Source of the DNA: a virus
Reading direction: 5' to 3' (one strand)
DNA length: 44,970 nt
Virus record (IMG/VR): IMGVR_UViG_3300009001_000017
Coordinates: 1 to 44,970 of that record
Program-made: the position numbers and the translations under genes
Shown: one piece after another, positions 1-38,746 of the stretch
Layout of the letters: the number at the start of each line of letters is the position of its first letter
Position numbering within the stretch: position 1 is the first letter of the stretch
Notes under the pieces: model-generated
Database searches by the model: none
What the model was told of the DNA's origin: nothing
The model's input: only the letters and a program-made list of their open reading frames with translations

Positions 1-1911
1 AACTTTACCATTGATGGCCTTGTAATGAATTTTACCATATGCCATTTCGCCATCATCACCTGGCAGTTCGTAGTCCATTGAACCGTCATAATCTGTATCT
101 ACATCTGAGGCAGTTGTTTTTTCTTTTTGTACTTCACCATATCTTAATTTGTTAAAGTTTTTAGCAAGATATTTTAATGCTTCTTTTTCGTCATGTGTTT
201 TGAAAACAGATTTTTCATCTTTGCCAAGTACATCATAAACCATTTTACCTTCGCCTTTTGGGTCTGGATCTTTGTACCTTGAAACATACGGTTTAATATC
301 TTCGAACGTTGTGCCTTCTGGAAAGCCTTCTTCTTTGTTTATACCAGGATCTGATTGCATGTCACCTGTATCAATTTTAGAAATCATTTGAGGATTTTTG
401 GCTTTGATGTAATCCATGATCATTGGTCTCAAACAAGCATCAGCATCTTCTTTTGAAGCCATTTTAATTTGTGCATTCAAGTCTTCGTCATCGATAATGC
501 CTTGTAAACTTTCAATGCCATTAACTCCATTAGGACCTGCAGGGAAATGTTTTGCCATCAGTTTGTTCAGTTTCACTATTGCTTGTTCACTTTCAGTTTT
601 ATCTGATGCAAACAAACCATTTTCTTCTTCTCCCACAATCAAGTTTATTTCTTTTTCAAAGTCTTCAAATGTGTTAAGAGTTTCTATCATTGAACCCAAT
701 GCATCTTTCACTACTTCTGGATTTGCGTCAGTATGAATTACAACTCCATTGTGTCTATTTTCATCTGGCTGAACATCTGCAACAATGCCTGCTTTGGCAA
801 GTTCTTGTGTAACTTCTTCTGCTTCTTTGTCTGAAACTGGACTTTCAGGATCAAAGTCTCCCGACATGTCAACTCTTATTGTTCGCGATTCTGCACCACC
901 TTGGTAGCCATGTGCTTCTGTTTCAAAATCTTGTGGACGTAATTCTTTAATTGCTGTTCTCTCAGAAACCAATTTGTATATGTAAGGAAATACATCTTGT
1001 AATTCTTCATTGAATGTTTTGATTGTTAATTCATCTATCCAATTTTTTTGCACATTGGCAGGAACCTCTTCTAACACGCTTTCTTGATGTGTTTCTTTTA
1101 TTGATTTATATCCTGATTCTTTTTGTAATTTTTGAGCTGTGTGTTTGATATCTTCTATTCGTTCATCAATCACAGACAAGTACTCTTTTAATCCTTCAGC
1201 CATCACATTGGATCTGTTCATGTATGTTTTAAATTTTTTTAATTTGTTAAGTTCTTCAGATAAACCTAAAATGTATTTTCCAAATTGATCATATGGATTG
1301 CCACCTTCAGCAACGTGTCTTGTCATTGCTCTGGCACCATTAAGATGTTTTAAAGGAAATTTAAATCTTTCTCCTGCTGGACTTTCGATAAAAATTGATT
1401 CGATTTTTTGTGATCTTGCTCCAGGAATTTCTGGGTCAACAATTGTGGAATGTTTTACAACCATTTTTGCATCACCAATCTGTTGAAAACTGGTTTTGTT
1501 TGTGCCAAACATGTTTGATTCGCTTACTGCTTCCATATTATTCTCTTTCTTTAAAAATTCGTAATCTCTTTTTTCAAGGTTACTTTTTGTGATATCTCTT
1601 GTGTCGAAACCCATTAACCTTGCTTTGGCAAACTCTCTCATTTCTTTTAAAAAGTTGTACCAAGACTCTTTGGTTGCCGGATCTGCTTCACTGATCACAT
1701 CAGTGCTGTGTAATACCACTAAACCTTGATCTTCACTTATACTTATGCTGATTTTCCCAAAACTTTTGCCTTCTTTGACAAAATCAAAATCGAAAAATCT
1801 TGCCTGTTTTGGGTTATTTGTAACATTACCGTCAGAATCACCTACAGTAATTGTGGGAAATTGACCACGCAGTTTATTAAACAGTGCAGTTGATGTATTT
1901 TGTAAGTCCAT
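1..1911 (-). CDS. Large conserved phage protein of unknown function, 3' end cut by window edge
   Basis: I read an uninterrupted minus-strand frame from an ATG at 1911 to the left edge, at least 637 codons, beginning MDLQNTSTALFNKLRGQF. It is acidic and hydrophilic with no signal peptide or membrane segment. I do not recognise a catalytic motif. From memory, similar very long unannotated proteins occur beside the terminase in marine T4-like phages, so a virion or packaging-associated role is possible but unproven. The start is supported by a late-promoter octamer AATAAATA that ends six bases before the ATG and overlaps nothing but the terminase stop region. It follows gp17 (stop at 1926) by 14 bases, in the same direction. 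The frame contains no stop, so the gene appears intact as far as it is visible. Confidence 0.85.
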   Translation of the reverse strand, partial: MDLQNTSTALFNKLRGQFPTITVGDSDGNVTNNPKQARFFDFDFVKEGKSFGKISISISEDQGLVVLHSTDVISEADPATKESWYNFLKEMREFAKARLMGFDTRDITKSNLEKRDYEFLKKENNMEAVSESNMFGTNKTSFQQIGDAKMVVKHSTIVDPEIPGARSQKIESIFIESPAGERFKFPLKHLNGARAMTRHVAEGGNPYDQFGKYILGLSEELNKLKKFKTYMNRSNVMAEGLKEYLSVIDERIEDIKHTAQKLQKESGYKSIKETHQESVLEEVPANVQKNWIDELTIKTFNEELQDVFPYIYKLVSERTAIKELRPQDFETEAHGYQGGAESRTIRVDMSGDFDPESPVSDKEAEEVTQELAKAGIVADVQPDENRHNGVVIHTDANPEVVKDALGSMIETLNTFEDFEKEINLIVGEEENGLFASDKTESEQAIVKLNKLMAKHFPAGPNGVNGIESLQGIIDDEDLNAQIKMASKEDADACLRPMIMDYIKAKNPQMISKIDTGDMQSDPGINKEEGFPEGTTFEDIKPYVSRYKDPDPKGEGKMVYDVLGKDEKSVFKTHDEKEALKYLAKNFNKLRYGEVQKEKTTASDVDTDYDGSMDYELPGDDGEMAYGKIHYKAINGKV

Positions 1912-1917
1912 ACAGTG

Positions 1918-1925
1918 TATTTATT
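1918..1925 (-). promoter_or_regulatory. Late promoter octamer AATAAATA
   Basis: Minus-strand AATAAATA lies 6 bases before the ATG at 1911, with no Shine-Dalgarno between. It matches the T4 late consensus TATAAATA at 7 of 8 positions. The transcript would be expected to begin at or next to the start codon. Confidence 0.6.
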
Positions 1926-3515
1926 TTAATGTGAGACAAACAAAGGCAAAGGCATCACCTTTTCAGACATCTCATCATCGTCAATTTGAGTAAAAGAATT
2001 GTATATTTTTGGATCCCAATCACGCAACACGCCCATTAAACGTATGCACAACAATGTTGCAGAAACAAGGTCATCTGAATCGCCCGATTTGGCTTTATAG
2101 GAGTTTCCTGATGCAATAAATGATTTAAGTTCCTTAATTAAGTTTTTAGAATTTATTTTAATTTTGTTTCGCTCCACCATAACTTTTAATCTTGAACAGG
2201 CACTAATTTTTGATCTGTGTGTGGTGTTGAATCCTTTTCTAAATTTTCTTATGTGTCCTTTCCTGATTGGTTCTGAGACAAACATGCCTGGAATATTTTC
2301 TTCACCAAATTCTTGTATAACAATTAATGCAGATTCTCCAATGGTGTTATTTTCCACACTCCAATAAATGTTAGATCCTGTTCTATTTCCACACTCATCC
2401 TTAATGTAATTACATATTTCTTTTAAAATTCTAATTTGATGAGGAATAGCGGTCATATTGTGTTTCCATTCTGCCACTTGTTCAAAACTAGGCAGTTCAA
2501 AAACCTGAATAGCCGCTGAATCTCCACCTGTACCCATTGCTGGATCAAGAGCAATGACGTAAGTTGAATGACCATTTAATTTTTTATACCAACGTGTTTG
2601 TCCCATATTTAAAATAGGTTCTTTTCCTTCTAGAGTAGACAACATAATACTATCCACAAGAGTTTCGTCAAATACTAAAAACTCACAACCATATTCACGT
2701 CTAAATCTTTCTTCACCTATACGTCCTAGTTCTTGTGCCTTCCAATCTTCATCTCTGTCCGGATGTTCGTCCCAACTTGCTCTAAAACCATGGAATCCAT
2801 TTGAGCCCAGTTTTTGTTCATTGCCATGTTCATCAAATTTGTTTTGACTTTCTCTCCATATTGTGGCAAACACATCTTCATCTGAGTTAGGTGTTGATGT
2901 GATAATTGCTCTACCACCTGTTGCCAGTGTAGGTGATATAGATGTCCAAAACTCTTGTGCTATGCCCGGATTAACAAATGCAAACTCATCGCAGTATAGT
3001 AAAGATATTGACATACCTCTACCTGTGTTGCCTGTTGTGGTTGCGGATACAATTCTTGATCCGTTTTCAAATTCCATTGATCCTTTGTTGTAGTTGGTCA
3101 CACCTGCTCTGACGTAATCAGGACACAATTCATATCCATATCTAATACGTTGCATGATCTCTTGAGCACCTGTGTATTTGTGTGCCGCAATCAGAATTGT
3201 TTGATCCGGATGAAACATCGCATACCATAATAGATAACAAGCGGCTGTGGTGGTCTTTCCGCTCTGTCTAGGTAGCATGTTGATATTGAATCTGTAATCA
3301 TGGTAACTGGACAACAATCTTGTTTGATATTCGAAAGGTTCAAATATACATTTACCTCTGACAGGATGTTGAATAAAGAAAAACTTTTTGGCAAATGAGA
3401 GAAAACCTTCTTTTGGATCTGAACATTCAATCAAATCTTGTATCTGATCTTCTGTAAATTTTTCTTTTATGTGTGCTTTTTTGGTAAGGACACCGTCTAA
3501 ACTTTTGTTACTCAT
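1926..3515 (-). CDS. gp17: Terminase large subunit, DNA-packaging ATPase/nuclease (gp17)
   Basis: This is the packaging motor that pumps and cuts DNA at the portal. The 529-residue product shows Walker A RQSGKTT at residues 83-89, a Walker B strand SLLYCDEF at about 171-178 (D176, E177), a coupling motif TSTPN at about 207-211, and an RNase H-fold nuclease start IALDPAMG with D324, plus a late acidic cluster DSDD near the C-terminus. T4 gp17 is 610 residues, so this is a shorter family member, as is usual in marine relatives. I prefer the ATG at 3515 over an in-frame TTG at 3521. The variant octamer CATAAGTA ends six bases before this ATG. Its neighbours are head and packaging genes. Confidence 0.95.
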   Translation of the reverse strand: MSNKSLDGVLTKKAHIKEKFTEDQIQDLIECSDPKEGFLSFAKKFFFIQHPVRGKCIFEPFEYQTRLLSSYHDYRFNINMLPRQSGKTTTAACYLLWYAMFHPDQTILIAAHKYTGAQEIMQRIRYGYELCPDYVRAGVTNYNKGSMEFENGSRIVSATTTGNTGRGMSISLLYCDEFAFVNPGIAQEFWTSISPTLATGGRAIITSTPNSDEDVFATIWRESQNKFDEHGNEQKLGSNGFHGFRASWDEHPDRDEDWKAQELGRIGEERFRREYGCEFLVFDETLVDSIMLSTLEGKEPILNMGQTRWYKKLNGHSTYVIALDPAMGTGGDSAAIQVFELPSFEQVAEWKHNMTAIPHQIRILKEICNYIKDECGNRTGSNIYWSVENNTIGESALIVIQEFGEENIPGMFVSEPIRKGHIRKFRKGFNTTHRSKISACSRLKVMVERNKIKINSKNLIKELKSFIASGNSYKAKSGDSDDLVSATLLCIRLMGVLRDWDPKIYNSFTQIDDDEMSEKVMPLPLFVSH

Positions 3516-3521
3516 ATACAA

Positions 3522-3529
3522 TACTTATG
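3522..3529 (-). promoter_or_regulatory. Variant late promoter octamer CATAAGTA
   Basis: CATAAGTA on the minus strand ends 6 bases before the gp17 ATG. It differs by one base from the CATAAATA found at the same spacing before the gene at 7325. Assignment rests on this positional match. Confidence 0.35.
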
Positions 3530-3558
3530 CTTTAAATTGGTGGTGTTATGCGATTTGA

Positions 3559-3717
3559 TTATGCGTTTTTCTTCGCCATTTTTGTGGCAATAGCATACAT
3601 CACTGATTTTGCATCATCACCGTAACGTTTTTTAAAATCGCCTTTGTCTTTTTTCATACCTTTGACGTATTTTTCTTTGGCTTTTTCTTCTGGTTTTGTG
3701 AGGCTACGTTCTAGTCT
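3559..3717 (-). other. -1 frame extension of the 147-residue gene across an A9 run
   Basis: Just before the stop of the gene starting at 4154, the coding strand has nine consecutive A (3717-3725). Sliding back one base there opens a 52-codon extension that ends at the TAA at 3559-3561. The extension is lysine-rich and ends SVMYAIATKMAKKNA, a C-terminus that looks like real marine-phage protein. The frame has no upstream ATG of its own: its only ATG would give a 32-residue peptide. It could be a programmed -1 frameshift, a recent indel or a homopolymer sequencing error. Confidence 0.5.
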
Positions 3718-4154
3718 TTTTTTTTGAAGTCTTGGTAGGCTTGTTTTAATGTTTCTTTAATTGAAGATTGTAATTCTTCTTCAGTTTTTTCAACTGCCAT
3801 TGCGTTATCGCCGTCTTGTGCTTTAGCAAAACTTTTCTTTTGTTTGTTGATACCACCCGATATATCTTTCGTCATGTATTGAGTGTCTTGATATCTAGGT
3901 TCAGGAGTTGTTGATGCTTTGCCTGGAATTTCTTCTTCTACAGATTCTTCTGGAGCAGGTCCTTGCACAATTGCTGGTGGAGGAGTAACTCCTGCATTTT
4001 TAAAAATTTGTGCAATTGCCGCCATGTCTTCAGGAGTATCTCCGTACAACATAACTTGCGATGCTTCTTTAACATGTATTCTTTTCACATCTTCTTTCAA
4101 TTGCTCTTTGCTTTGAATACTGTCTACTTTTTTTAAAAAATCTCTAATGTCCAT
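3711..4154 (-). CDS. Small conserved phage protein of unknown function, possibly extended by frameshift
   Basis: The predicted product is 147 residues, starting MDIRDFLKKVDSIQSKEQL. It is hydrophilic, with a charged helical N-terminus, a Pro/Glu-rich middle and a Lys-rich C-terminus ending DFKKKD. A longer in-frame start exists upstream, but it would overlap the preceding gene, and the ATG at 4154 follows octamer GGTAAATA by 5 bases. I recognise no domain. It lies between the gp16-like and gp17 genes, which hints at head or packaging work. Its last codons sit on an A9 run; a -1 slip there would add 52 residues and give about 198 (see the extension entry). Confidence 0.7.
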   Translation of the reverse strand: MDIRDFLKKVDSIQSKEQLKEDVKRIHVKEASQVMLYGDTPEDMAAIAQIFKNAGVTPPPAIVQGPAPEESVEEEIPGKASTTPEPRYQDTQYMTKDISGGINKQKKSFAKAQDGDNAMAVEKTEEELQSSIKETLKQAYQDFKKKD

Positions 4155-4158
4155 AAAA

Positions 4159-4743
4159 TTATTTACCTTTCTGCTTGCCTGAAATAGGTGACATTTCGTT
4201 TTTGCTGTCGCCTTCATTAGGAAGCACATTACCACCTGGTTTAATTCCAGATGCGGCATCTGGTGCTGATCTGTCTTTTCTGTCTTTTTCTAATTCTTTT
4301 AACAATTCCATTACTCTGTTATCACCAGCAGTTTTTTGTTCATCTTTACTGGCTTCATAATCAGTGTCTAACATCGCTTCATATGGTTTATTGTCTTTAG
4401 GTTCTTGTTCTTGCTCTTGTGGAGCATTTGGATCTCTCACTATCACGTGTGCAGGATCCATGCCTAAAGTGTTTTGCAAATACTGTTCTAATATTTGTGG
4501 AGTTGTTGGATATTCTGTTTCAAGATCAAAATAAGTTGCTCTTGTGTTTTGTAAATTTGGAAAATCTAGTGGTCTCTCTTGAATAGGAGTTTTCTTACCT
4601 TTGCTCATGCTGGCTAATTTAAATTTTTGCATCACAGTTTCAAGTTTATCAACTGCGTTTTCGGGCAAATCGCCTGCCAAACCCACTTTGTATGAGTATA
4701 ATTTTTTGCTTTCTACTAGATAGTGTTTAAAACTTTGTTTCAT
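4159..4743 (-). CDS. Conserved phage protein of unknown function
   Basis: The product is 194 residues, starting MKQSFKHYLVESKKLYSYKVG. The first 110 residues look folded; the rest is a Glu/Gln/Lys-rich, low-complexity and probably disordered tail. It has no signal peptide or membrane segment, and I do not recognise the family. It is a minus-strand gene between the probable small terminase (stop at 4748) and the 147-residue gene, with only 4-5 bases between genes. Its start follows octamer GATAAATA by 5 bases, and that octamer is formed by the last codons of the upstream gene (GAT AAA TAA). A head or DNA-packaging accessory role is inferred only from position. Confidence 0.75.
   Translation of the reverse strand: MKQSFKHYLVESKKLYSYKVGLAGDLPENAVDKLETVMQKFKLASMSKGKKTPIQERPLDFPNLQNTRATYFDLETEYPTTPQILEQYLQNTLGMDPAHVIVRDPNAPQEQEQEPKDNKPYEAMLDTDYEASKDEQKTAGDNRVMELLKELEKDRKDRSAPDAASGIKPGGNVLPNEGDSKNEMSPISGKQKGK
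4160..4167 (-). promoter_or_regulatory. Late promoter octamer GGTAAATA
   Basis: GGTAAATA overlaps the last codons of the upstream 194-residue gene (GGT AAA TAA) and ends 5 bases before the ATG at 4154. There is no Shine-Dalgarno. Confidence 0.5.
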
Positions 4744-4747
4744 AGTG

Positions 4748-5251
4748 TTATTTATCCATTTTTTTAAGTTTTTCCAACAAACTGTTACGGTCTGATATTA
4801 TGTATCCGTCTCCTTGCACTAAATTCGTACCTTCTGGAGAGTCTTTGGTGTCTTGTTTCTGCTTCTTAAGTTGCAAATCCACCATTTTAAGTTTTTTGTC
4901 CAATTTGGCTGTTTTTGCATCGAGGCTGGTCTTCAACATTTGACCTGCTACTTCAAATATACGAGAAGCATATCTGCTTTCCACGTTCATCCCTAAATCC
5001 ATCAGATCTTCGTAGGCTGTGATTGCTCTTTGTCCCACATCGTCCAGTTCTGTGTCTGCCATTTCTCCCAGTCCGTCTACTTTGGGAAGTGCCGAAGCAA
5101 TTTTGTCAAACTCTGCAATATCTCTCATGGCTGTTTCGTTTTCTTTCTGTTGTTTTTTACTAATTTTTTTGTCCTGCTTTGCTTTGTTGTCTTCTTTAAC
5201 AATATCTTGAGATTCAGGCAAATTTAATAGTTCTTCTAATTTTTTGGTCAT
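4748..5251 (-). CDS. gp16: Probable terminase small subunit (gp16-like)
   Basis: The product is 167 residues, close to the 164 of T4 gp16. The central part (about residues 45-125) is predicted to be strongly helical, including AMRDIAEFDKIASALPKV and a segment of the type YASRIFEVAGQMLKTSLDAK followed by KLDKKLKMVDLQLKKQKQD. This fits the coiled-coil oligomerisation core of gp16, which forms a ring that regulates gp17 and recognises DNA. The Lys-rich N-terminus and C-terminus are probably flexible. It lies upstream of gp17 in the same direction, but two extra genes separate the pair, unlike T4. The assignment rests on length, helical layout and synteny; no catalytic motif is expected. Confidence 0.65.
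   Translation of the reverse strand: MTKKLEELLNLPESQDIVKEDNKAKQDKKISKKQQKENETAMRDIAEFDKIASALPKVDGLGEMADTELDDVGQRAITAYEDLMDLGMNVESRYASRIFEVAGQMLKTSLDAKTAKLDKKLKMVDLQLKKQKQDTKDSPEGTNLVQGDGYIISDRNSLLEKLKKMDK
4749..4756 (-). promoter_or_regulatory. Late promoter octamer GATAAATA
   Basis: GATAAATA ends 5 bases before the ATG at 4743 and is embedded in the final codons of the upstream gp16-like gene. There is no Shine-Dalgarno. Confidence 0.55.
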
Positions 5252-5259
5252 TGCAGTTT

Positions 5260-5267
5260 TATTTACT
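5260..5267 (-). promoter_or_regulatory. Possible late promoter octamer AGTAAATA
   Basis: AGTAAATA lies 8 bases before the gp16-like ATG at 5251, in the 48-base gap after gp4. It is a weaker match to the consensus. Confidence 0.4.
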
Positions 5268-5299
5268 GGAATTTGTATCCTAAATTCTTAAAATCGGCA

Positions 5300-5737
5300 T
5301 TATCTCTTTTTTCCTGTGTGGAATATATCAGATTCATTTATTATTTTAAAAGCAAATCCTCTGTTTCTACACCACAAGCCAGCAGACTTCCATTTAGCAT
5401 GATTGATTATCAATTGAGATTGATTGTATTTGTTTTTTCCAACACTTTCTAATTTAGTTTGATTTTCTGGTTTTATTTCTATAACATCAGCATGTTGCTT
5501 GCCGTTTTTGTCTGCATAAGCAATAAAAAAATCAGGTACATAAACAGAAAATTTTCCAGTTAATGGATGCTTGTATGGAATCTTGATTGATTCACTAGCC
5601 CATTTTGCGATGCTGGGACTTTCGTCACAAAATCTCATAAAAGCAAATTCCCAACTGCTTCTGTACAATGGAGTTTTTCCGCCAATATATTTTTCAGGAT
5701 ACTTCATAGAGAATCTACCCTGTGCAAATTTAGACAT
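5300..5737 (-). CDS. gp4: Head completion nuclease-like protein (gp4)
   Basis: The product is 145 residues against about 150 in T4 gp4. The family closes and stabilises filled heads before tail joining and has a restriction-endonuclease-like fold. Visible hallmarks are KYPEKYIGG near the N-terminus, YRSSWEFAFMRFCDESP at about residues 24-41, WASESIKIPY, then the acidic core VPDFFIAY and VIEIKP, which matches a PD-(D/E)xK-type site, and a basic end after INHAKWKSAGLWC. It overlaps nothing and follows the 119-residue gene by one base. A weak TCAAATA precedes the ATG by only two bases, and there is no clear Shine-Dalgarno, so it may depend on upstream translation. Confidence 0.85.
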   Translation of the reverse strand: MSKFAQGRFSMKYPEKYIGGKTPLYRSSWEFAFMRFCDESPSIAKWASESIKIPYKHPLTGKFSVYVPDFFIAYADKNGKQHADVIEIKPENQTKLESVGKNKYNQSQLIINHAKWKSAGLWCRNRGFAFKIINESDIFHTGKKR

Positions 5738-5738
5738 G

Positions 5739-6098
5739 TTATTTGATTATGTTTCTTTTTTCTGTCCGATTGGTTGGGGTTGTATCTTTGTAACCCAATG
5801 ATGATATCTTTGATCTGTTGGCATTTAAAATTTCTGTTACGATGCCACTTAATTTTACATCATCTATTCCTTTAAGAGTATCTATTAACTCAAAAGCATT
5901 TACACCATCTATTTTTGCTTGAGTAAGTAAAACTGTGGCAGTTGAAATACTGCTTTGTTTAGAAAAACCTCTTGATTGAAAATATCCAATCATTGCATCC
6001 ACATCATTTGTAGGAAATGTTAAGACAGGTTTGTTTGAATTTTCAAAAAACTTTTTTGTGTCTTTTTCTACTGTATTTGTTTTTGGTAAATTGCTCAT
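5739..6098 (-). CDS. Small conserved phage protein of unknown function
   Basis: The product is 119 residues, starting MSNLPKTNTVEKDTKKFFENS, with a compact helical body (residues 28-105) that includes DVDAMIGYFQSRGFSKQSS and a Lys/Arg-rich C-terminus. It has no membrane segment or known motif. From memory, similar small proteins sit next to gp54 or gp4 genes in marine T4-like phages, so a virion assembly role is likely but not shown. It is packed between the baseplate/tube gene (3 bases upstream) and gp4 (1 base downstream), consistent with translational coupling. Confidence 0.7.
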   Translation of the reverse strand: MSNLPKTNTVEKDTKKFFENSNKPVLTFPTNDVDAMIGYFQSRGFSKQSSISTATVLLTQAKIDGVNAFELIDTLKGIDDVKLSGIVTEILNANRSKISSLGYKDTTPTNRTEKRNIIK

Positions 6099-6101
6099 GT
6101 A

Positions 6102-7325: not shown

Positions 7326-7331
7326 ATACTG

Positions 7332-7339
7332 TATTTATG
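7332..7339 (-). promoter_or_regulatory. Late promoter octamer CATAAATA
   Basis: CATAAATA ends 6 bases before the ATG at 7325, with no Shine-Dalgarno. It lies just downstream of a terminator hairpin, so it could restart transcription for the packaging block. Confidence 0.65.
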
Positions 7340-7361
7340 TAGGGAAAAAAGTGGTAGTATT

Positions 7362-7393
7362 AAAAACACAGGGCGACTTAGAGCCGCCGTGTG
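7362..7393 (-). terminator. Probable rho-independent terminator after the small membrane-protein gene
   Basis: Minus-strand stem CACACGGCG pairs with CGCCCTGTG (4 bp, one C:C mismatch, 4 bp; 9-base loop) and is followed by TTTTTAATA. It begins 17 bases after the stop of the gene at 7410-7529. Confidence 0.65.
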
Positions 7394-7409
7394 TACTGTT
7401 TAACCTGAA

Positions 7410-7529
7410 TTAGCCTTGTGTAGTAGCATCAACTGGTGTTGAATCACCAGTTAACATTGCTACACCAAACACGATTACAACAATCGCGATACCGATCCAA
7501 AGTTTTTTGTTTTTTAACATTTTCTTCAT
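7410..7529 (-). CDS. 39-residue single-pass membrane protein
   Basis: This reading frame encodes MKKMLKNKKLWIGIAIVVIV and continues to a short Thr/Asp-rich tail ending DATTQG. A basic N-terminus, a hydrophobic helix at about residues 10-27 and a short polar C-terminus predict one membrane segment with the N-terminus inside. An excellent Shine-Dalgarno (AAGGAG, eight bases before the ATG) makes it a convincing gene despite its size. It lies downstream of the strong gp19 terminator and ends at a second hairpin, so it is probably read at a reduced level by readthrough from gp19. The function is unknown; small phage membrane peptides include holin-like or superinfection proteins, but nothing here decides. 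Confidence 0.75.
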   Translation of the reverse strand: MKKMLKNKKLWIGIAIVVIVFGVAMLTGDSTPVDATTQG

Positions 7530-7556
7530 GGATTTTCTCCTTTTTGGTTATAACAA

Positions 7557-7578
7557 AAAAGGGGCCTGAGCCCCTTTT
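7557..7578 (-). terminator. Strong rho-independent terminator after gp19
   Basis: A perfect 9-bp hairpin (AAAAGGGGC / GCCCCTTTT, 4-base loop) starts 29 bases after the gp19 stop. On the minus strand a run of six T follows the GC stem. The AT arms make it usable on both strands, but only the minus strand is transcribed here. Confidence 0.85.
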
Positions 7579-7606
7579 AAGAATTTATAATTGCAAATAA
7601 AAGTTA

Positions 7607-8233: not shown

Positions 8234-8249
8234 TTTTCGTTCTCCTAAT

Positions 8250-8257
8250 TATTTATC
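8250..8257 (-). promoter_or_regulatory. Late promoter octamer GATAAATA for gp19
   Basis: GATAAATA lies 16 bases before the gp19 ATG, and AGGAGA (8241-8246) lies between them. It gives the tube gene its own promoter behind the sheath gene. Confidence 0.55.
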
Positions 8258-8260
8258 CTA

Positions 8261-11200
8261 TTATAACCCTGATATTTCACCAGTGTTTTTAAGTCTTAAT
8301 GGAACATAAATGAATTCCACTGCTTTGACTGGCTCAATTGCAATATCTAAATACAATTCATTTCTGTCTATTCTAGCAGGTGTGTTGTTTGTTTCGTCAC
8401 ACACAACTAGGAAGTCATAAATTGCTCTGTTACCAACCAATTCTAACATTAAACTTTCTGCTTGAGCTTTAATTTCATCTCTAGTAGTTTTATCATTTGG
8501 TTCAAAAACATAAGGTCTCGCCAATTTATTTAATTGACTTCTTAGGTAAATCACAAGTCTTGCAACATTGATTCTATCTAATGAACTTGCCGCCGCCGCT
8601 CTAGTTTTTTGTCCGTAGTTGACTAAACCAGCACCTGTTATGAACGTGATTGGGTTTACATTACCAGCATAAAGTGTGTCTCTTTGACCTTCGTTTAAAG
8701 ATACTGCCACAAACTCGCCTTCGCTGTTTACGTAACCTGTTGACGTTGCATTTGTGATTCCACCTCTTCTTGTTCCTGCTGGAGCAAACCATGGGAAAGA
8801 AACTTGATCACTTAAAGCAATTGTTCTCAACATCATGTGACTTGGTGGAACAACAACATTGTTTCCAAAGTTGTCACTTGTGAATCCTGATGGATAAAAT
8901 ACACCCAAATATTCGTCACTAGTAACTAAACCTAAGTCATTGTCTTCTAATGCAAGGTTAACATTGTTTACATAATCACCAATTGTTGTTGCATCTGGTG
9001 TTAATCTAAATGGAGTATCACCTACCACAAAAGCACTTAATCCTCTGTCGTAATTTAATGAAACCATTTCACCAATCAGTTCTGCATAACCCGGTGTTGC
9101 CATCACGTTGAATAATCTAGATTCATCATCTCTGATTTCTTGATTAGAATTTAGAGTGGCTTGTAATGCTTGTACCACAACTTTACGTTGAGCTTTTCTT
9201 CCAAACGAACCTGAACCGTCTGCTTGGTTGCCTGATTCAGTTACCCATCTGTGTGGATAGTATAAAGTCATTGCTTCATCGTTTGCTCTCTTGTTGTCAG
9301 CAGTTGTGTCAATGTAGTTTCTAACAAATTTTCTAACATTAAAACCTGAACGTCTCAAGTTCCACAACAACATACCTTGTGGGTATAGTGCTGGATCTGG
9401 AGCGTCTGGGTCTAAGTAACCGCTTGTAAGTAATGCTTCGATGGTTGCTTCTGTGCCACCTGTTGCACCTGAAGTTCCGTATCTTGCGTCTGCAAATAAA
9501 ATACCTTCTTCAGTTGTTTGGTCAGTTGTGTCCACTGCTACCCATCTTGTGTCCACTGGACCTTGAATAGTTGTGTCATACTTGTAAATCTTAGGATAGT
9601 TTTCTAAATCTGCTGTAGAAATCCAAATGTCATTATCAACCAAAGCACTTGTACCATCTTGTTGTGTGTCTGGTGCAGTTGCTGAAACTGTTGGTCCTAA
9701 TGCATCTGTTGATGGATAAGCAGTTTTATAACCCACCCAAGTTGAACCATCATGAGCCATAATGTCCACTTCATCAATTGTTGATGAGTACCACATTTGT
9801 CCATCTGATGCCAATGAAGTCACTGCATTATCGCTGGCTGTGTATGATAAAACTTTCCAGTTCGAAATTGTGTACTGTGATGGATCTGTAGCACCGTCTG
9901 TGCCTGCTTCAAAATAGAAGTTAGCAGTTGAGGTAGTACTGAAACCTGCTAATGGCATAATGCCATTGGTGTCAGTAATGTTGATATCTCCACCTTCTGT
10001 GTGTTCAATTACCACTCTGTTTAAACTATCAACAGTTGCTTTAATTTTTGTTAAAAGCCCTTGGGAATTAATTGCATCAGCAATTGCATCTGCATCAGTA
10101 TTAGCACCTGTTGTTGTGATTGAAACAGTTGCAGTTGTGGTTGTGTTTTTTCCTTTTTCAGTTTGTGTTACTGAAATACTGTAAGTTGAAGCGGCAACAC
10201 CACTTGCCCCAATAATACCACCTGTTGCTTTTGATGAGCCTGAATTTTCTCTTCTGAAAATTTTGTAGTCTGCTTGATCTGTACCATTTGATGCATTTAC
10301 ATACAAATCACCAACAGCAAGATTTATTCCACCGCCTGCTCTGTCTAATCCGTATAATGCCAATGTTGCACCTGATTCAGTGTCTGATTTTGCATAAACT
10401 GGTGCAGAAATTTCTTCCCACAAGTTTGTAGCGCCATTGAATTTTTTAACTCTAATTCTTGCACCCGCATTTGGTTCTGTTGTTTTGATCCAAACTGAAC
10501 CACTGTGTTGTGCTGAAGCATCTGTGCCTTGCACACCTTTCCATTGAGGAACTGATGTGTGTGGGCCGGTTGAAACTTTAGGTATATTGTATTTCACAGT
10601 GCCTAAACCAACTGCCGCCGCAAGTCCACTGCCCTCTTCAATTGTGATTCCATCAGTTGAACTGCCATCATTGTAAAGCACTAAAAAATTGTTTATATTT
10701 TTTGCAGTGACTCCTGCAATGCCTAATCCATTAATTGCAACCACTGTGGCATTAAGATCTAAACCGCCAGTTGCTGTTGTGCCATTAATATCCATTGTTA
10801 AGCCAGATGTTGTTGGATTAGCAACTGTACCAACTGCTGTTGCAACTGATCCTGTCCATGCTGTCGAACCAACCAACTGCCATGTACCATCCGAATCTTT
10901 ATAGAATAATTCGTTTGATGTTGTTGTGGCGTCAATGGCATAATCACCAATTTGGCCAATACTGCCTTTAGGCTTGTTGTTGGAAATATCAGTTGAACTT
11001 GTGATTACTAAAGGTGTTTTCGATGTAAAAATTTGTCCACCGTTTGTTTTGCCTTGTCCGTTCCATTCTAAAACTCCCCAAGAAGTGATTGATGTGTCTA
11101 ACCAGTATGTACCTGCTGGTGGATTAGCACTTGGAACTGTTGATGAGGCTTGTAATTCTCCTAGGTCAACATCTGCTCTAACAACATATGCTCTGTTGGC

Positions 11201-11509
11201 TATACCTAAATATGAGTAAGCCGCTTGTAAACCATATTCGTTTAATTCGTTACCATGCAATGGATTGTTGTTGTTATCTGTGTAAAAAGTAGGATCACCA
11301 AATGTTTCTGCTAATTCTCTTTGTGAAGTCATCAAGTACACTTTGCCTGCGTTAGCGGCTGTTGTACCTTGTGCTGTTCCTGTGCCGGAACTGTTTGTTT
11401 TGTCTTGTGCCGAAGCAACAAATATCATTGGGACTGTGCCCGGTTCTGCTGGCGTGTAGAAACTTTCGTCTATTACGCTAACTTGTACTCCTGGTGAAAC
11501 TAATGCCAT
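8261..11509 (-). CDS. gp18: Tail sheath protein (gp18), enlarged
   Basis: This protein forms the contractile outer tail. The N-terminus MALVSPGVQVSVIDESFYTP and the C-terminal third are typical of sheath proteins: NVRKFVRNYIDTTADNKRAN, GNNVVVPPSHMMLRTIALSD, FPWFAPAGTRRG, and RINVARLVIYLRSQLNKLAR followed by FEPNDKTTRDEI. At 1082 residues it is much longer than T4 gp18 (659). The extra material, about residues 130-690, contains several short beta modules with a D-G-x-x-W signature that also occur in gp14 and gp15 here. A TATAAATA octamer and an AGGAGA Shine-Dalgarno (11517-11522) precede it in a leader of about 25 bases. Confidence 0.95.
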   Translation of the reverse strand: MALVSPGVQVSVIDESFYTPAEPGTVPMIFVASAQDKTNSSGTGTAQGTTAANAGKVYLMTSQRELAETFGDPTFYTDNNNNPLHGNELNEYGLQAAYSYLGIANRAYVVRADVDLGELQASSTVPSANPPAGTYWLDTSITSWGVLEWNGQGKTNGGQIFTSKTPLVITSSTDISNNKPKGSIGQIGDYAIDATTTSNELFYKDSDGTWQLVGSTAWTGSVATAVGTVANPTTSGLTMDINGTTATGGLDLNATVVAINGLGIAGVTAKNINNFLVLYNDGSSTDGITIEEGSGLAAAVGLGTVKYNIPKVSTGPHTSVPQWKGVQGTDASAQHSGSVWIKTTEPNAGARIRVKKFNGATNLWEEISAPVYAKSDTESGATLALYGLDRAGGGINLAVGDLYVNASNGTDQADYKIFRRENSGSSKATGGIIGASGVAASTYSISVTQTEKGKNTTTTATVSITTTGANTDADAIADAINSQGLLTKIKATVDSLNRVVIEHTEGGDINITDTNGIMPLAGFSTTSTANFYFEAGTDGATDPSQYTISNWKVLSYTASDNAVTSLASDGQMWYSSTIDEVDIMAHDGSTWVGYKTAYPSTDALGPTVSATAPDTQQDGTSALVDNDIWISTADLENYPKIYKYDTTIQGPVDTRWVAVDTTDQTTEEGILFADARYGTSGATGGTEATIEALLTSGYLDPDAPDPALYPQGMLLWNLRRSGFNVRKFVRNYIDTTADNKRANDEAMTLYYPHRWVTESGNQADGSGSFGRKAQRKVVVQALQATLNSNQEIRDDESRLFNVMATPGYAELIGEMVSLNYDRGLSAFVVGDTPFRLTPDATTIGDYVNNVNLALEDNDLGLVTSDEYLGVFYPSGFTSDNFGNNVVVPPSHMMLRTIALSDQVSFPWFAPAGTRRGGITNATSTGYVNSEGEFVAVSLNEGQRDTLYAGNVNPITFITGAGLVNYGQKTRAAAASSLDRINVARLVIYLRSQLNKLARPYVFEPNDKTTRDEIKAQAESLMLELVGNRAIYDFLVVCDETNNTPARIDRNELYLDIAIEPVKAVEFIYVPLRLKNTGEISGL

Positions 11510-11539
11510 TTTAAAATCTCCTAATTTCTTTGTCTTGTG

Positions 11540-11547
11540 TATTTATA
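11540..11547 (-). promoter_or_regulatory. Consensus late promoter TATAAATA for gp18
   Basis: A perfect match to the T4 late consensus lies 30 bases before the gp18 ATG. The Shine-Dalgarno AGGAGA is placed in the leader between them. Confidence 0.8.
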
Positions 11548-11602
11548 AAGAAAACCTAAATCACAGGCTCTTTAGTGCTTTTAAAAGGTCTCAAAAAGGC
11601 TA

Positions 11603-11610
11603 GGTAAATA
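11603..11610 (+). promoter_or_regulatory. Late promoter-like octamer GGTAAATA
   Basis: On the plus strand GGTAAATA ends 6 bases before the ATG at 11617, with no Shine-Dalgarno. It repeats the spacing seen on the other strand. Confidence 0.5.
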
Positions 11611-11616
11611 GTGTAT

Positions 11617-11958
11617 ATGAGACCACTTTGTATTGTTTGTAAACAAAAGCCTTGTGCTATTAATTATCATAAAGCAGGAAAAGTTTTCTACAGACAAAAA
11701 TGTGGTGTGTGTACTAAACAAAAAGCAGGTGCTAAAGGGTGGCCAAAATGGTGGTTAGCAGGATACAGAACTAAAAAAAATTGTGATAAATGCGGACACA
11801 CCAGTAAACACATTGAACAATTTAATGTATATCATATTGATGGAAATCTTAATAATTGCTCGTTTAAAAATTTAAAAACAGTGTGTGCTAACTGTCAAAG
11901 GATATTGCATCTTGAAGGGGTAACTTGGAAGCAAGGTGACCTTGTACCTGATTTCTAA
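11617..11958 (+). CDS. Zinc-knuckle HNH endonuclease-like protein
   Basis: The product is 113 residues with four CxxC pairs (C5/C8, C29/C32, C56/C59, C90/C93), suggesting two zinc sites. The core YHIDGNLNN (H73, D75, N79/N80), then KNLKTVCANC, matches the HNH/endonuclease VII layout. The last position, normally His after the final CxxC, is Gln94, so nuclease activity is uncertain. A GTG at 11611 is in frame, but I prefer the ATG at 11617 because of the octamer spacing. It stands alone on the plus strand between gp18 and the dNMP kinase gene and overlaps the kinase 3' end by 71 bases tail to tail. A free-standing homing-type nuclease is one possibility. Confidence 0.75.
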   Translation: MRPLCIVCKQKPCAINYHKAGKVFYRQKCGVCTKQKAGAKGWPKWWLAGYRTKKNCDKCGHTSKHIEQFNVYHIDGNLNNCSFKNLKTVCANCQRILHLEGVTWKQGDLVPDF

Positions 11959-12514
11959 GAGCATCTATTGTGCTGTTATTTTCAAAAACTTTGTTGAAAC
12001 TTACATTGGCCCATGCCCATTCTGATGGATGAATGTCTTTGGGTGTTTGTCCTATGTCTTGATACATTCTAAACCACATAGGTAATTGACCTCTTTTTAC
12101 CCACCATACTTCACCGCCAATTTCTTTAATCATTTTTGCTTCGTTTTCGAACCGCACATCTGGAATAACCCATTTAACGTCAGGATTGTCCAGGATCTTT
12201 TTCTTAGTTAAGCTCACCCAGATACCATCATAAAAACCTTCTCTCATACATTCTGTGCCAAATTTTTGTAGCACAAATCTTGGAGTAATCGATTGGCCCG
12301 TCTCTTTACTCCAGAACTTGTCTTCTTGCTCACGCCAATCCCTTGATTCTTTAGTTTTACCATCCAGTAATTCTCTGTCCCAATCAAACATACTTGCCAC
12401 ACTGTCTTTTAGTTTGTCTGCAAAAGATAATTTCTTAAATGAATAATTTTGTACCAGTTGATCAGCAATTGTGTCTTTGCCTGAACCTATTAATCCGCAA
12501 ATTCCTACTATCAT
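11888..12514 (-). CDS. gp1: Deoxynucleoside monophosphate kinase (gp1-like)
   Basis: This enzyme would phosphorylate dNMPs to dNDPs with ATP for phage DNA synthesis in the cytoplasm. The 208-residue product has a P-loop GLIGSGKDT at residues 7-15, a LID/substrate region with GKTKESRDWRE, then VLQKFGTECMREGFYDGIW (typical of the T4 gp1 family, which is 241 residues), and VIPDVRFENEAKMIKEIGGEVWWV. It overlaps the upstream oxygenase gene by 4 bases (ATGA), so the two are translationally coupled. This pair has a host-type promoter rather than a late octamer, fitting early expression of a nucleotide enzyme. The 3' end overlaps the convergent HNH gene. Confidence 0.9.
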   Translation of the reverse strand: MIVGICGLIGSGKDTIADQLVQNYSFKKLSFADKLKDSVASMFDWDRELLDGKTKESRDWREQEDKFWSKETGQSITPRFVLQKFGTECMREGFYDGIWVSLTKKKILDNPDVKWVIPDVRFENEAKMIKEIGGEVWWVKRGQLPMWFRMYQDIGQTPKDIHPSEWAWANVSFNKVFENNSTIDALRNQVQGHLASKLPLQDAISFDS

Positions 12515-13155
12515 GATATCTTAACCTGCCCTGTTCCTGTTCCTATTTTTCCTTTTGTAAAAGTGTTGAATGCTAAACTGTATCTATGTCTGTCAGATGT
12601 GGTTGTTGGCACTGTGTGTTCTACATGAGAAGGGAACATCAACAAATCTCCTGTCTTTGGTTGTATGGCAAACGTTTCAGTATTATATTGATTATTGTTG
12701 TCTTTGAAAGGAGTTTTAATTGATTCTGCCCAAAGATTGTTATACATGTAATTTTTGTCAAAATAAATTGGTGCTGTGTCGGTGCTTACATCAACATAGA
12801 ATACACCACTTATTAATGAATTTGGATGTCTGTGTTTTTCTATAAATTCACTTCCTCGGTGTCTATTGATCCAACTGCTTGTAATATCAAACTTTATTTC
12901 ATCTATCACACCCAAAACTTCGTTAGCAAAATGATTTATTTTATTTTGTATCTGTATTTTTAAAGTCTTGCACTGTGGCTTGTCCAAAATATGCATTCCT
13001 CTATCGCTTATTGGTAGATGATCATCAGTGTTATCGTGACCAACTCTTGCGTAAGGAAATTCTAAATTGAGTAAAAAAGTTTTTACAATTGGATCCAAAA
13101 TTATTTTAGTTCTGTACAAAGGCACAGAAAACATGGGCGTTAGTTGAAAAGACAT
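12511..13155 (-). CDS. 2-oxoglutarate/Fe(II)-dependent oxygenase, TIGR02466-like
   Basis: The 214-residue product has the layout of the TIGR02466 2OG-Fe(II) oxygenase family: WINRHRGSEFIEKHRHPNS, then SGVFYVDV, a central insert, FAIQPKTGDLLMFPSHVEHTV, and RHRYSLAFN. Likely iron ligands are in H108/H110 and H180, with R191 binding 2-oxoglutarate. Such enzymes are common in marine T4-like phages; substrates are unknown and may be protein, nucleic acid or small molecule. It is the first gene of a two-gene unit with dNMP kinase. The ATG at 13155 lies 6 bases after a TATTAT -10 element, so the mRNA may lack a leader. Confidence 0.8.
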   Translation of the reverse strand: MSFQLTPMFSVPLYRTKIILDPIVKTFLLNLEFPYARVGHDNTDDHLPISDRGMHILDKPQCKTLKIQIQNKINHFANEVLGVIDEIKFDITSSWINRHRGSEFIEKHRHPNSLISGVFYVDVSTDTAPIYFDKNYMYNNLWAESIKTPFKDNNNQYNTETFAIQPKTGDLLMFPSHVEHTVPTTTSDRHRYSLAFNTFTKGKIGTGTGQVKIS

Positions 13156-13161
13156 AACCTA

Positions 13162-13190
13162 ATAATACTAGAAATTTATGAAAGTGTCAA
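13162..13190 (-). promoter_or_regulatory. Sigma70-type promoter TTGACA-17-TATTAT
   Basis: On the minus strand TTGACA (13185-13190), exactly 17 bases and then TATTAT (13162-13167) match the housekeeping bacterial promoter. It sits directly before the oxygenase gene. It implies early, host-polymerase expression inside a late region. Confidence 0.7.
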
Positions 13191-13197
13191 GTATAAA

Positions 13198-13959
13198 TTA
13201 ACCAATTGTGAACGAATAACCAACACCACCTGGAACTTGAAGTGCCAATTCTTGGTCTAGTTTTTCCAATTCAGCAGATGCTTCCTGTTTCAGTGCATCG
13301 CCATTCAAAGATGATCCACCTTGTGGACCTGCTATTGTGTTAAATTTACTTCTGGCTTCTCCCAGCATGTATTTTGAAATTGCCAGCGTGTAACTTTTAA
13401 TCCATTTGTTGGCAAGATAATCTTTAAGCAATTCTGTGTCTGGTCTGTAATTGTAGGCATACAACAATAAATTTTCTTCTGCTCTGGGTCTTTGAAGCAG
13501 TGTTAATTCTTTTGTGGTGTTGTTCCATTTGAATTCGATAAACGAACCAAACATTCTACCTACCAATTCTTGATATTGTGCAAAAGCATTGTAAGTTGCC
13601 AGTCCGCCCATGTTGGTGCTGGCTAAAAGATATGAATTTGTGTAGGCCATGTTGAATGGTTCAAACAGTGTACCACCGTCTCCGCCACCAGTTCTTGACC
13701 CTATTGATCTTCTAAAAATTTTTCTCACTTCCATCACTTCGTTTGGCAATGTGTATGTGTTTTGATCCAACACAGTTGGCATGAAAAGATAAGATTCTTC
13801 CACAGAATGATCAGATCTCTGACGATATCTGTCAAATGCGTCCTTGATGGCTGTTTCGTAGTGCTCTGGATCCAGCTCTACATCAATCATGCCACCGCCC
13901 AGCATACGGTATACGTAGTCGAATATTTCCTGTTTCTGTGTATTAAAATCTGAACTCAT
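13198..13959 (-). CDS. gp13: Neck protein gp13
   Basis: The 253-residue product is a head-completion/neck component that, with gp14, closes the head and receives the tail. Its family pattern is clear: FDYVYRMLGGGMIDVELD near the N-terminus, then HYETAIKDAFDRYRQRSDHS and SYLFMPTV, YTLPNEVMEVRKIFRRSIGS, a Gly-rich turn, GGLATYNAFAQYQELVGRMF and a strand-rich C-terminal half with LTLLQRPRAEENLLLYAYNY. T4 gp13 is 309 residues. It is transcribed away from its partner gp14. A consensus TATAAATA ends 6 bases before the ATG, with no Shine-Dalgarno. Confidence 0.9.
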   Translation of the reverse strand: MSSDFNTQKQEIFDYVYRMLGGGMIDVELDPEHYETAIKDAFDRYRQRSDHSVEESYLFMPTVLDQNTYTLPNEVMEVRKIFRRSIGSRTGGGDGGTLFEPFNMAYTNSYLLASTNMGGLATYNAFAQYQELVGRMFGSFIEFKWNNTTKELTLLQRPRAEENLLLYAYNYRPDTELLKDYLANKWIKSYTLAISKYMLGEARSKFNTIAGPQGGSSLNGDALKQEASAELEKLDQELALQVPGGVGYSFTIG

Positions 13960-13965
13960 TTATTA

Positions 13966-13973
13966 TATTTATA
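13966..13973 (-). promoter_or_regulatory. Consensus late promoter TATAAATA for gp13
   Basis: A perfect TATAAATA on the minus strand ends 6 bases before the gp13 ATG, back to back with the gp14 octamer (14 bases between). Confidence 0.75.
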
Positions 13974-13987
13974 AGCATCTAGGTATT

Positions 13988-13995
13988 AATAAATA
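13988..13995 (+). promoter_or_regulatory. Late promoter octamer AATAAATA for gp14 and the rightward operon
   Basis: AATAAATA on the plus strand ends 6 bases before the gp14 ATG at 14002. It is the only clear promoter ahead of the long rightward gene run up to the motif at 17010. Confidence 0.65.
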
Positions 13996-14001
13996 TGATG
14001 T

Positions 14002-15402
14002 ATGCCACGAATCAGTTTATATAAACCAGAAAAAGGTCCAGATTACACTTTTTTAGACAAGAATATCAACGAAATGTTCACAGTGGGTGGAACAGATGTT
14101 TTTGTACACAAATATCTAGGTCCTAAGAATCCTGATCAATCAGATGCCACAGCAGATCAGCCTAGATATGATGCTGTAAAAGAAACTAACATTCAAGACC
14201 TTTTATTTTTAGAAAACAGAGACAGAAAATATGATGAAAACATCTATCGTCTAAGAGGCATCTACAACGTGCAAGATGTTGACTTTGACATGAGTCAATT
14301 TGGACTATTTTTACAGAACGATACACTGTTTATGACCATACCTATTTCATACAGTGTTAAAACTTTGGGCAGAAAAGTGATGCCAGGTGATGTTTTTGAA
14401 TTACCACATTTGAAAGATGAATATGCATTGAATGATTTTCAAGTTGCATTAAAAAGATTTTATGTTGTTGAAGATGTCAACAGAGCAAGTGAAGGGTTTT
14501 CACAAACTTGGTGGCCACATCTTTACAGAGTTAAGTTGAAACAAATATACGACTCACAAGAATTCAAAGACATTTTGAAATTACCTGCAGAAGAAGGCAG
14601 TAGTAAAACTTTGAAAGATGTTCTTTCAACATATGAACAAGAAATGCAGATCAATAATGCAGTGGTACAACAGGCAGAAGCAGATGCTTCTAAGTCTGGT
14701 TATGATACTAGTCATTTGTACACACTTCAAGTGGATGATGAAGGCAAGCCGGAACTTGTAACCACAGATATAACAGATTTAGATGCAAGTACCCAGAATG
14801 AAATGGCTGACCGAATTAATCAAACGCCAGAAAGAACTGGATATGATGGCTATTTGTTAGGAGATGGATTAGCACCTAACGGAGAAGTTTTTGGACATGG
14901 TATTTCATTTCCAACTGGTTCGGCAAAAGGAGATTATTTTTTAAGAACAGACTTTATGCCAAACAGATTGTTTAGATTTGATGGACAACGTTGGGTAAAA
15001 ATGGAAGATTCTTTAAGAATGACATTAACCAATACCGACACAAGAAACACTATGAAAACTAAATTTATTAACAATAACAATTATGTATATTCAGGAAAAG
15101 TTGCCACAGATATTGTTACACTATCAAAAGATGCAACAACAATTACAACAGAAATAAATTATCCTATAACAGCAAACTATTTGATGCTAAAATTAGATAC
15201 TAGAGAAATAAATTACGTGATTGGTGATCATGAGAACTTGATTACATCATCTAACAACAAAGTTTATATCACATTGCCTGTCATATCTGATGTCCAACAA
15301 AAGATACCGTTTGATGGCAGATGGAGTGTGGAATTTTACACTAATCGACAAGAAGAAAGACAGAGTCTTTCAAAAGCATTACGACCACAGGCGGATAATT
15401 AA
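14002..15402 (+). CDS. gp14: Neck protein gp14
   Basis: The product is 466 residues, much longer than T4 gp14 (256). The N-terminal half shows the family signature: RISLYKPEKGPDYTFLDKNI, GGTDVFVHKYLGP, QDLLFLENRDRKYDENIYRL, FGLFLQNDTLFMTIPI, GRKVMPGDVFELPHLKDEYA, LKRFYVVEDVNRASEGFSQT and WWPHLYRVK. The C-terminal half is an addition, including GDYFLRTDFMPNRLFRFDGQ followed by RW, a D-G-x-x-W beta module like those in gp15 and gp18 here. With gp13 it forms the neck under the portal. Its stop overlaps the next start (TAATG). Confidence 0.92.
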   Translation: MPRISLYKPEKGPDYTFLDKNINEMFTVGGTDVFVHKYLGPKNPDQSDATADQPRYDAVKETNIQDLLFLENRDRKYDENIYRLRGIYNVQDVDFDMSQFGLFLQNDTLFMTIPISYSVKTLGRKVMPGDVFELPHLKDEYALNDFQVALKRFYVVEDVNRASEGFSQTWWPHLYRVKLKQIYDSQEFKDILKLPAEEGSSKTLKDVLSTYEQEMQINNAVVQQAEADASKSGYDTSHLYTLQVDDEGKPELVTTDITDLDASTQNEMADRINQTPERTGYDGYLLGDGLAPNGEVFGHGISFPTGSAKGDYFLRTDFMPNRLFRFDGQRWVKMEDSLRMTLTNTDTRNTMKTKFINNNNYVYSGKVATDIVTLSKDATTITTEINYPITANYLMLKLDTREINYVIGDHENLITSSNNKVYITLPVISDVQQKIPFDGRWSVEFYTNRQEERQSLSKALRPQADN

Positions 15403-35318: not shown

Positions 35319-35326
35319 TATTTAGC
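35319..35326 (-). promoter_or_regulatory. Late promoter octamer GCTAAATA
   Basis: GCTAAATA lies 31 bases before the ATG at 35287, with AGGAGA between. The same octamer with a similar leader precedes the ATG at 44461. Confidence 0.5.
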
Positions 35327-36306: not shown

Positions 36307-36321
36307 AATATTATTTACTCC

Positions 36322-37356: not shown

Positions 37357-37364
37357 ATCTATTC

Positions 37365-38738: not shown

Positions 38739-38746
38739 TATTTATT
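38739..38746 (-). promoter_or_regulatory. Late promoter octamer AATAAATA
   Basis: AATAAATA lies 24 bases before the ATG at 38714, in the gap after the 106-residue gene. A Shine-Dalgarno lies between, as in the other fibre genes. Confidence 0.6.

Follow-up and report, generated by a model that had tools for sequence, protein, structure and literature searches.

The virus record IMGVR_UViG_3300009001_000017 of IMG/VR, analysed here over its complete 44,970 bases (G+C 37%) and referred to as the window, represents a 45-kb piece of a marine phage in the T4 superfamily. It carries T4-type head and tail genes, amongst them those for the terminase large subunit (start codon at 3515), the tail tube (8233), the sheath (11509) and the neck adaptor (13959); a tRNA search of the 44,970 bases found none. 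The first 24 kb gave no megablast match among 50,697 phage records, and the cultured phages nearest to its terminase are jumbo phages: PA5oct and its relatives (52%), Sinorhizobium phage Phosso (48%), Atu_ph07 (53% over 79%) and the Erwinia/121Q group. Late transcription in T4 is a textbook system, and the subject of this analysis is how octamers of the T4 late-promoter type are placed relative to the start codons of virion genes in the window and in related phages.

Throughout, k denotes the number of bases separating an octamer from the ATG; octamers near the ATG are called proximal, and those further upstream distal or leadered. The initial annotation had listed eight proximal octamers ending 5-6 bases before the ATG (starts at 1911, 3515, 4154, 4743, 7325, 11617, 13959 and 14002) and five leadered genes with the octamer 16-31 bases away and a Shine-Dalgarno (SD) sequence. 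Read from the sequence, all of these hold (Table 1), the SDs being of GGAG or AAGGA type. Three proximal octamers do not match NATAAATA, namely CATAAGTA before the start at 3515 and GGTAAATA before those at 4154 and 11617. Beyond that list, octamers occur ahead of the starts at 5251 (k=8), 17027 (k=9) and 30816 (k=22, without an SD).

Table 1. Octamers, and one hairpin, in the window; k is given in bases.
Feature	Position	Strand	k	ATG	Gene and remarks
Late octamer AATAAATA	1918..1925	-	6	1911	head structural gene
Variant octamer CATAAGTA	3522..3529	-	6	3515	terminase large subunit; not TAAATA
Octamer GGTAAATA	4160..4167	-	5	4154	overlaps last codons and stop of upstream gene
Octamer GATAAATA	4749..4756	-	5	4743	virion structural protein
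Octamer CATAAATA	7332..7339	-	6	7325	tail tube-like
Octamer GGTAAATA	11603..11610	+	6	11617	gene divergent from sheath
Octamer TATAAATA	13966..13973	-	6	13959	neck/head-tail adaptor
Octamer AATAAATA	13988..13995	+	6	14002	virion structural protein; opposite-facing octamer 14 bp away
Leadered octamer GATAAATA	8250..8257	-	16	8233	tail tube; SD AGGAG
Leadered octamer TATAAATA	11540..11547	-	30	11509	tail sheath; SD AGGAG
Leadered octamer GCTAAATA	35319..35326	-	31	35287	SD AGGAG
Leadered octamer AATAAATA	38739..38746	-	24	38714	SD-like AAAAAGGA
Leadered octamer GCTAAATA	44486..44493	-	24	44461	SD CGGAG
Ambiguous octamer AGTAAATA	36312..36319	-	5	36306	overlaps GGAG; absent from the initial list
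Terminator-like hairpin	7372..7388	-			between upstream gene (tube side) and the octamer of 7325

The non-random feature of the octamer in the window is its placement only, not its abundance: matches with at most one mismatch number 75 against 81.5 expected and are thus not enriched in the window. NATAAATA stands at k=5-6 before 5 of the 35 hand-listed starts of open reading frames (ORFs), there being only 8 copies of it in the whole window, and in the random-ATG control the mean was 0.097 and the maximum 2 (20,000 draws). For NNTAAATA the count was 8/35 (random-ATG mean 0.17, maximum 3) and for NNTAA[AG]TA 9/35 (mean 0.21, maximum 4). Shuffling the upstream regions gave chance counts similar to those of random ATGs, far below the observed ones.

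Octamer spacing among relatives of the window

Relatives are encoded in at least 598 stretches of IMG/VR, and the best 80 of these (74-100% identity) were compared together with the window as an ortholog set of 81 mutually related sequences. From the ortholog counts we dropped loci that had no ATG close to the aligned start or fewer than 45 bases upstream, six loci nested in longer records were removed, and the counts refer to unique upstream sequences, many of which are related and therefore do not represent independent events. Over the 81 sequences, NATAAATA lies at k=5-6 before the ATG of an ORF of at least 60 codons in 145 of 343 cases, at k=1-4 in none and at k=0 in two.

The arrangement is real and conserved. 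The head structural gene (1911-type) has its octamer at k=5-8 in all 37 unique upstreams, and the 11617-type gene at k=4-7 in all 17. The terminase (3515-type) has TAAATA in 10/32, and is proximal in 32/32, without an SD, once the variant ATAAGTA is allowed; the nearer relatives carry [CG]ATAAGTA in place of TAAATA at the site corresponding to 3522-3529, with k=6 kept. Other genes divide between the classes, the 7325-type gene being proximal in 23/26 and distal in 3/26, the 4743-type gene proximal in 17/32 and distal in 15/32, and the 4154-type gene proximal in 17/27 with the remaining 10 lacking an octamer; the 5251-type gene has a smaller proximal class (8/31). The tube is distal, at k=15-22, with an SD in 18/18 unique upstreams, and the sheath has an SD in 16/16 and an octamer within 45 bases in 9/16. 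No proximal class appears in the ortholog table for the head closure, 6098, dNMP kinase, 2OG oxygenase and tail completion genes, and the major capsid gene, which was found in 6 of 9 genomes and had its first ATG taken, has an SD and lacks a proximal octamer in all six.

The same two distance groups are seen genome-wide in the window and six longer relatives (76-186 kb); the window and its relatives are called the clade below. Of 108 ATAAATA copies lying no more than 50 bases from an ORF start, 3 stand at k=0-4, 25 at k=5-6 and 6 at k=9-13, with the bulk of the others at k=14-27, whereas 20 permuted motifs gave a mean of 0-0.35 per sequence at k=5-6.

The same gene can belong to different classes in related phages, often with an SD gained. 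For the 7325-type gene the sequence is GATAAATACTAGT-ATG in one relative (L070) and GATAAATATTAATACAGGAGAGTAACA-ATG in another (L079), and an SD is present in 1/23 proximal and 3/3 distal upstreams. The 4154-type gene has one in 0/17 proximal and 9/10 octamer-less upstreams, and over all ortholog groups the count is 3/161 proximal versus 46/80 distal. The initial annotation was correct in noting no SD at the proximal starts. With a looser SD-like motif, scored genome-wide in the clade, 60/70 distal upstreams have one. The A content of codons 2-6 shows no difference between the classes (p 0.31 and 0.71).

The divergent pair at 13959 and 14002 was followed in a second scan of 80 loci around gene 14002, analysed together with the window. 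Gene 14002, for which the first ortholog set had given an octamer at k=5-8 in 10/10 unique upstreams, has one at k=5-8 in 29/29 (19 of them at k=8) and an SD in 0/29. In 27 unique regions the spacer between the two start codons measures 39-57 bp (median 48) and holds both octamers in every case, facing away from each other at a distance of 0-14 bp (14 bp in the window). On the 13959 side the octamer is at k=17-19 in 23/27 regions, so that the neck gene is distal there, and at k=6 in 4/27, these four coming from the window and three closely related phages. Because the spacer is divergent and this short, there is no nearby same-strand upstream source of a leader, and the RNA of gene 14002 can hardly start elsewhere, barring a distant antisense origin. 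The spacer also leaves scant room for separate upstream promoter elements such as a -35 element. Two polymerases probably cannot occupy it simultaneously; if they exclude each other over 13960-14001, as they should, a possible either-or switch between the neck and the structural gene would result.

Octamer spacing in other phages

For comparison across phages, ORFs were called simply, with ATG as the only start codon, a minimum of 60 amino acids (aa), and either the longest frame or one of the few earliest ATGs taken. Every ATAAATA up to 50 bases ahead of an ORF start was then counted, together with the fraction at k=5-6. This fraction was 4/7 in the window (4 with the ORF caller, 5 with hand-listed starts) and 3/24, 4/23, 4/16, 3/12, 4/13 and 3/13 in its relatives G001, G002, G004, G005, G006 and G007. 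It was 8/16 and 6/28 in the Pelagibacter myophages HTVC008M and Mosig and 3/24 in Melnitz (OM43 host). The cyanophages gave 3/23 (P-SSM4), 1/29 (P-SSM2, 212 of 252 kb), 0/25 (S-PM2) and 0/15 (Syn9), and 0/27 was obtained for T4, 2/33 for PA5oct, 0/38 for Vibrio 2.275.O, 0/41 for Atu_ph07 and 0/6 for Phosso (41 kb). The alphaproteobacterial phages phiM12 (0/4) and Cr30 (0/1) have too few octamers to judge. By Fisher's test the clade (25/108, window and six longer relatives) differs from T4, PA5oct, Vibrio 2.275.O, Atu_ph07, Phosso, phiM12 and Cr30 (2/150; Melnitz left out) with p=9e-9 and the pelagiphages (14/44) differ from the cyanophages (4/92) with p=3e-5, genes across relatives not being independent in either test. 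PA5oct, P-SSM2, P-SSM4 and Melnitz have counts above zero, so other phages are not strictly free of the arrangement. The distance count thus bears out the 5-6-base peak, which is present in the relatives and in the cultured pelagiphages HTVC008M and Mosig and absent from T4.

The T4 late promoter (TATAAATA at -13 to -6, read by gp55 with gp33 and gp45) and the clade share the octamer, its use at late genes, a purine at the sixth base past it and, in relatives of the window, a gp55 homologue; in T4, however, the octamers lie at least 9 bases from the ATG (0/27 at k=0-8) and 26/27 leaders have an SD, whereas the clade has a class fused to the ATG. The cyanophage late promoter, reported as NATAAATA with no octamer-ATG distance in the accessible part of the source (PMC2984593), likewise has a relaxed first base and belongs to marine T4-like phages, such as S-PM2 and Syn9, but stands at k=5-6 in 4/92 cases over the four cyanophages.

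HTVC008M and Mosig belong to a distant group (Kyanoviridae) and share a proximal class as well as distal leaders mostly with an SD (5/5 and 16/18). The proximal genes of HTVC008M comprise, by their PHROG names, the tube, head closure, DNA end protector, a baseplate wedge subunit and a transcriptional regulator, and in Mosig the tube and end protector are also proximal. They differ from the clade in having ATAAATA at k=5 (8 and 6 cases), with some at k=7-8 and none at k=6, in the G that follows the octamer, and in the tube, which is distal in the clade. The tube of the HTVC008M group was at k=5 in 7 and at k=6 in 1 of 8 unique upstreams from 15 loci, while the tubes of Melnitz and S-PM2 are leadered, the S-PM2 start being uncertain. 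The initial statement that tube and sheath belong to the leadered class therefore stands for the clade, but a rule that abundant products are leadered is not general, since the HTVC008M and Mosig tube is proximal.

Homologues of gp55 were found in G001 (E 2.5e-74) and G002 (E 9.5e-81), both to phrog_12791, the PHROG "sigma factor for late transcription", and a further hit in G003; there was no match in the window or in the partial records G004-G007. The homologues at L086:19042-19899 and L097:10736-11584 are about 285 aa long, against 185 aa in T4, and resemble T4-type gp55 in the C-terminal part only; similarly long open frames exist in Atu_ph07, PA5oct and Phosso. The G directly after the octamer occurs at 14/22 proximal and 14/27 distal octamers of the pelagiphages, and at 4/53 and 8/70, respectively, in the clade. 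As the two classes agree in this base within each lineage, proximal octamers follow the lineage's own promoter style, pointing to a single promoter type in each lineage.

Predicted transcription starts and rival explanations

According to a T4 study (PMC1524935) the late octamer spans -13 to -6, and base 6 past the octamer is therefore +1. A purine occupies this base in 0.76 of T4 octamers (n=25) and in 0.89 (n=70) and 0.90 (n=72) of the leadered octamers of the clade. Among the proximal upstreams with k=5 (n=77), base 6 is the A of the ATG and base 5 is a pyrimidine in 73. Among those with k=6 (n=72), base 4 is a pyrimidine in 67, a purine stands at base 5 in 71, and one stands at base 6 in only 4, so that a 1-nt leader appears to be mostly avoided; in smaller sets a purine at base 6 was found in 0/68 (without the window genes and the proximal neck genes) and 2/14. 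No p-value is given for this pattern because the sequences are related. Since the leadered octamers have the T4-like signature at base 6, the proximal class is best read as starting transcription at or near the ATG. By their position, k=5 octamers should yield a 0-nt leader, k=6 octamers mostly fit a leader of 2 nt (start at base 5) or 0 nt (start at base 7), and k=7-8 octamers should yield about 2-3 nt. In most proximal genes the start site thus looks adjusted to the AUG. The initial annotation had predicted transcription from the ATG or one base from it, of which the start at the ATG agrees with this signature and the single-base leader, at k=6, mostly does not.

The explanation we consider likely is that the phage sigma factor gp55 reads the octamers as late promoters of the T4 type and that those of the proximal class are fused to the start codon. 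RNA polymerase would then start at the A of the AUG for k=5, at this A or 1-2 bases ahead of it for k=6, and 2-3 bases ahead for k=7-8. The resulting mRNAs, very probably with leaders of 0-3 nt as judged from octamer position, would be leaderless or nearly so and be translated by recognition of the 5'-terminal AUG without an SD, while a second class of late genes would retain a leader, usually with a strong SD. Where these mRNAs really begin and how they are translated is inferred here from the sequence.

Several alternatives were weighed against this explanation. One is that the proximal octamers arise by chance or from mis-called start codons, as might happen with a simple ORF caller; permuted motifs across phages and random ATGs give far lower counts, and start codon and spacing are kept in the orthologs, which refutes it and leaves it practically no weight. 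Another is that TAAATA beside the ATG is a gene-junction or translation-start element, consisting of the stop codon TAA and an A/T-rich, non-SD ribosome site, in an mRNA that comes from further upstream. The octamers at 4154 and 4743 do include the stop codon of the upstream gene, and some other aid to initiation could be expected where the SD is missing; however, the octamer is also found at the divergent starts 14002, 13959 and 11617, which have no adjacent same-strand upstream gene, the extra base of the pelagiphage lineage (G) is common to proximal and distal octamers, and the pattern at bases 4-6 fits initiation of transcription rather than ribosome binding. The peak is moreover missing in T4, S-PM2, Syn9, Vibrio 2.275.O and Atu_ph07 (pooled 0/146 at k=5-6, with 3 at k=7-8), and we regard such an element as quite improbable. 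Somewhat less improbable, though still unlikely, is that the proximal octamer is a real promoter whose leaderless transcript is minor, the main functional mRNA being read-through from upstream late promoters. Genes 1911, 3515, 4154 and 4743 form a co-directional cluster whose gaps are short and could use such RNA; but read-through is hard to apply to the divergent genes, the hairpin of Table 1 stands ahead of 7325, and the RNA would present these genes without an SD in 158/161 cases.

Some observations weigh against promoters fused to the start codon and leaderless translation. Besides the co-directional genes just named and the relatedness of the upstreams, the octamers at 4154 and 4743 overlap the last codons of the upstream gene, which may constrain them, and the window neck gene (13959), with a purine as its base 6, agrees with a leader of 1 nt, the four k=6 exceptions including this gene and those of near relatives. 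The lack of an SD in the proximal class is partly imposed by geometry, because the octamer occupies the SD position, and a looser SD-like 4-mer within 20 bases, scored over genome-wide ORFs rather than orthologs only and able to overlap the octamer, is present in 13/53 proximal upstreams of the clade and 3/22 of the pelagiphages. A distal octamer may also lack an SD, as in 21/21 5251-type and 9/15 4743-type upstreams; the initial proposal of two start classes thus holds as two distance groups, and its pairing of the leadered class with an SD does not always hold. Finally, no TATAAT peak was seen at the leaderless distance in 381 unique ORF upstreams from 120 SAR11 loci near rRNA genes.

A SAR11 host habit of leaderless mRNA was tried as a cause and rejected, TATAATN{5,7}ATG occurring 1752 times and TATAATN{35,37}ATG 1723 times in 16 SAR11 genomes with any ATG counted; because SAR11 -10 boxes show no excess at the leaderless distance, no host cause is claimed. 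An SD-like motif precedes 3.7% of the 381 ORFs near SAR11 rRNA genes (a narrow sample, L275 onward) and 54-55% of the ORFs of HTVC008M and Mosig.

Further features of the window were noted alongside. The gene at 4748-5251, with its 21/21 relatives that combine a distal octamer with the lack of an SD, represents a third, unexplained class. Terminator-like hairpins number 14 sites in 16 kb against 9.0 expected, a modest excess, and two of them flank a small minus-strand ORF recognised by eye (MKKMLKNKKLWIGIAIVVIVFG..., about 7400-7530), which has a strong SD and sits between the tube and tube-like genes. Three tandem glycine- and cysteine-rich paralogues at 35338-38330 start with MA[TS]L in their translations. 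The structural region also contains, judged by eye only, sugar-metabolism-like genes (17454-21315 and 30869-34584) resembling a heptose kinase/adenylyltransferase, an epimerase, a NodU carbamoyltransferase and a heptosyltransferase.

The mRNA of lambda cI and mRNAs of mycobacteria exemplify leaderless messages, with which the proximal class would share the 5'-terminal AUG and the predicted lack of an SD. It would differ from them in that here the messages would come from a phage late sigma promoter and serve a whole group of virion genes. One report (PMC5312081) mentions incidentally that the transcripts of phages often lack a leader, and in a literature search with most subscription journals outside its reach no report of leaderless late genes in T4-like phages was recognised.

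The arrangement is a new variation on T4-type late expression. It is of use for calling gene starts in the genomes of marine phages. ATG-fused promoters in conserved virion genes would show a widespread marine phage group using leaderless mRNA for structural proteins, and they prompt one to ask by what means SAR11 and other marine hosts translate messages of this kind. A broader idea, which we put forward only tentatively and consider doubtful, is that two distant marine groups of the T4 superfamily independently fused the gp55 promoter to the start codon, so that a phage-encoded leaderless late regulon, mostly with 0- or 2-nt rather than 1-nt leaders owing to tuned start-site bases, exists beside an SD-led one under separate translation control. 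If this were true, two sets of virion proteins could be translated at separately adjusted levels late in infection, for example through the state of ribosomes or initiation factors, and the trait would be a mark of phages that infect particular marine hosts, for instance SAR11.

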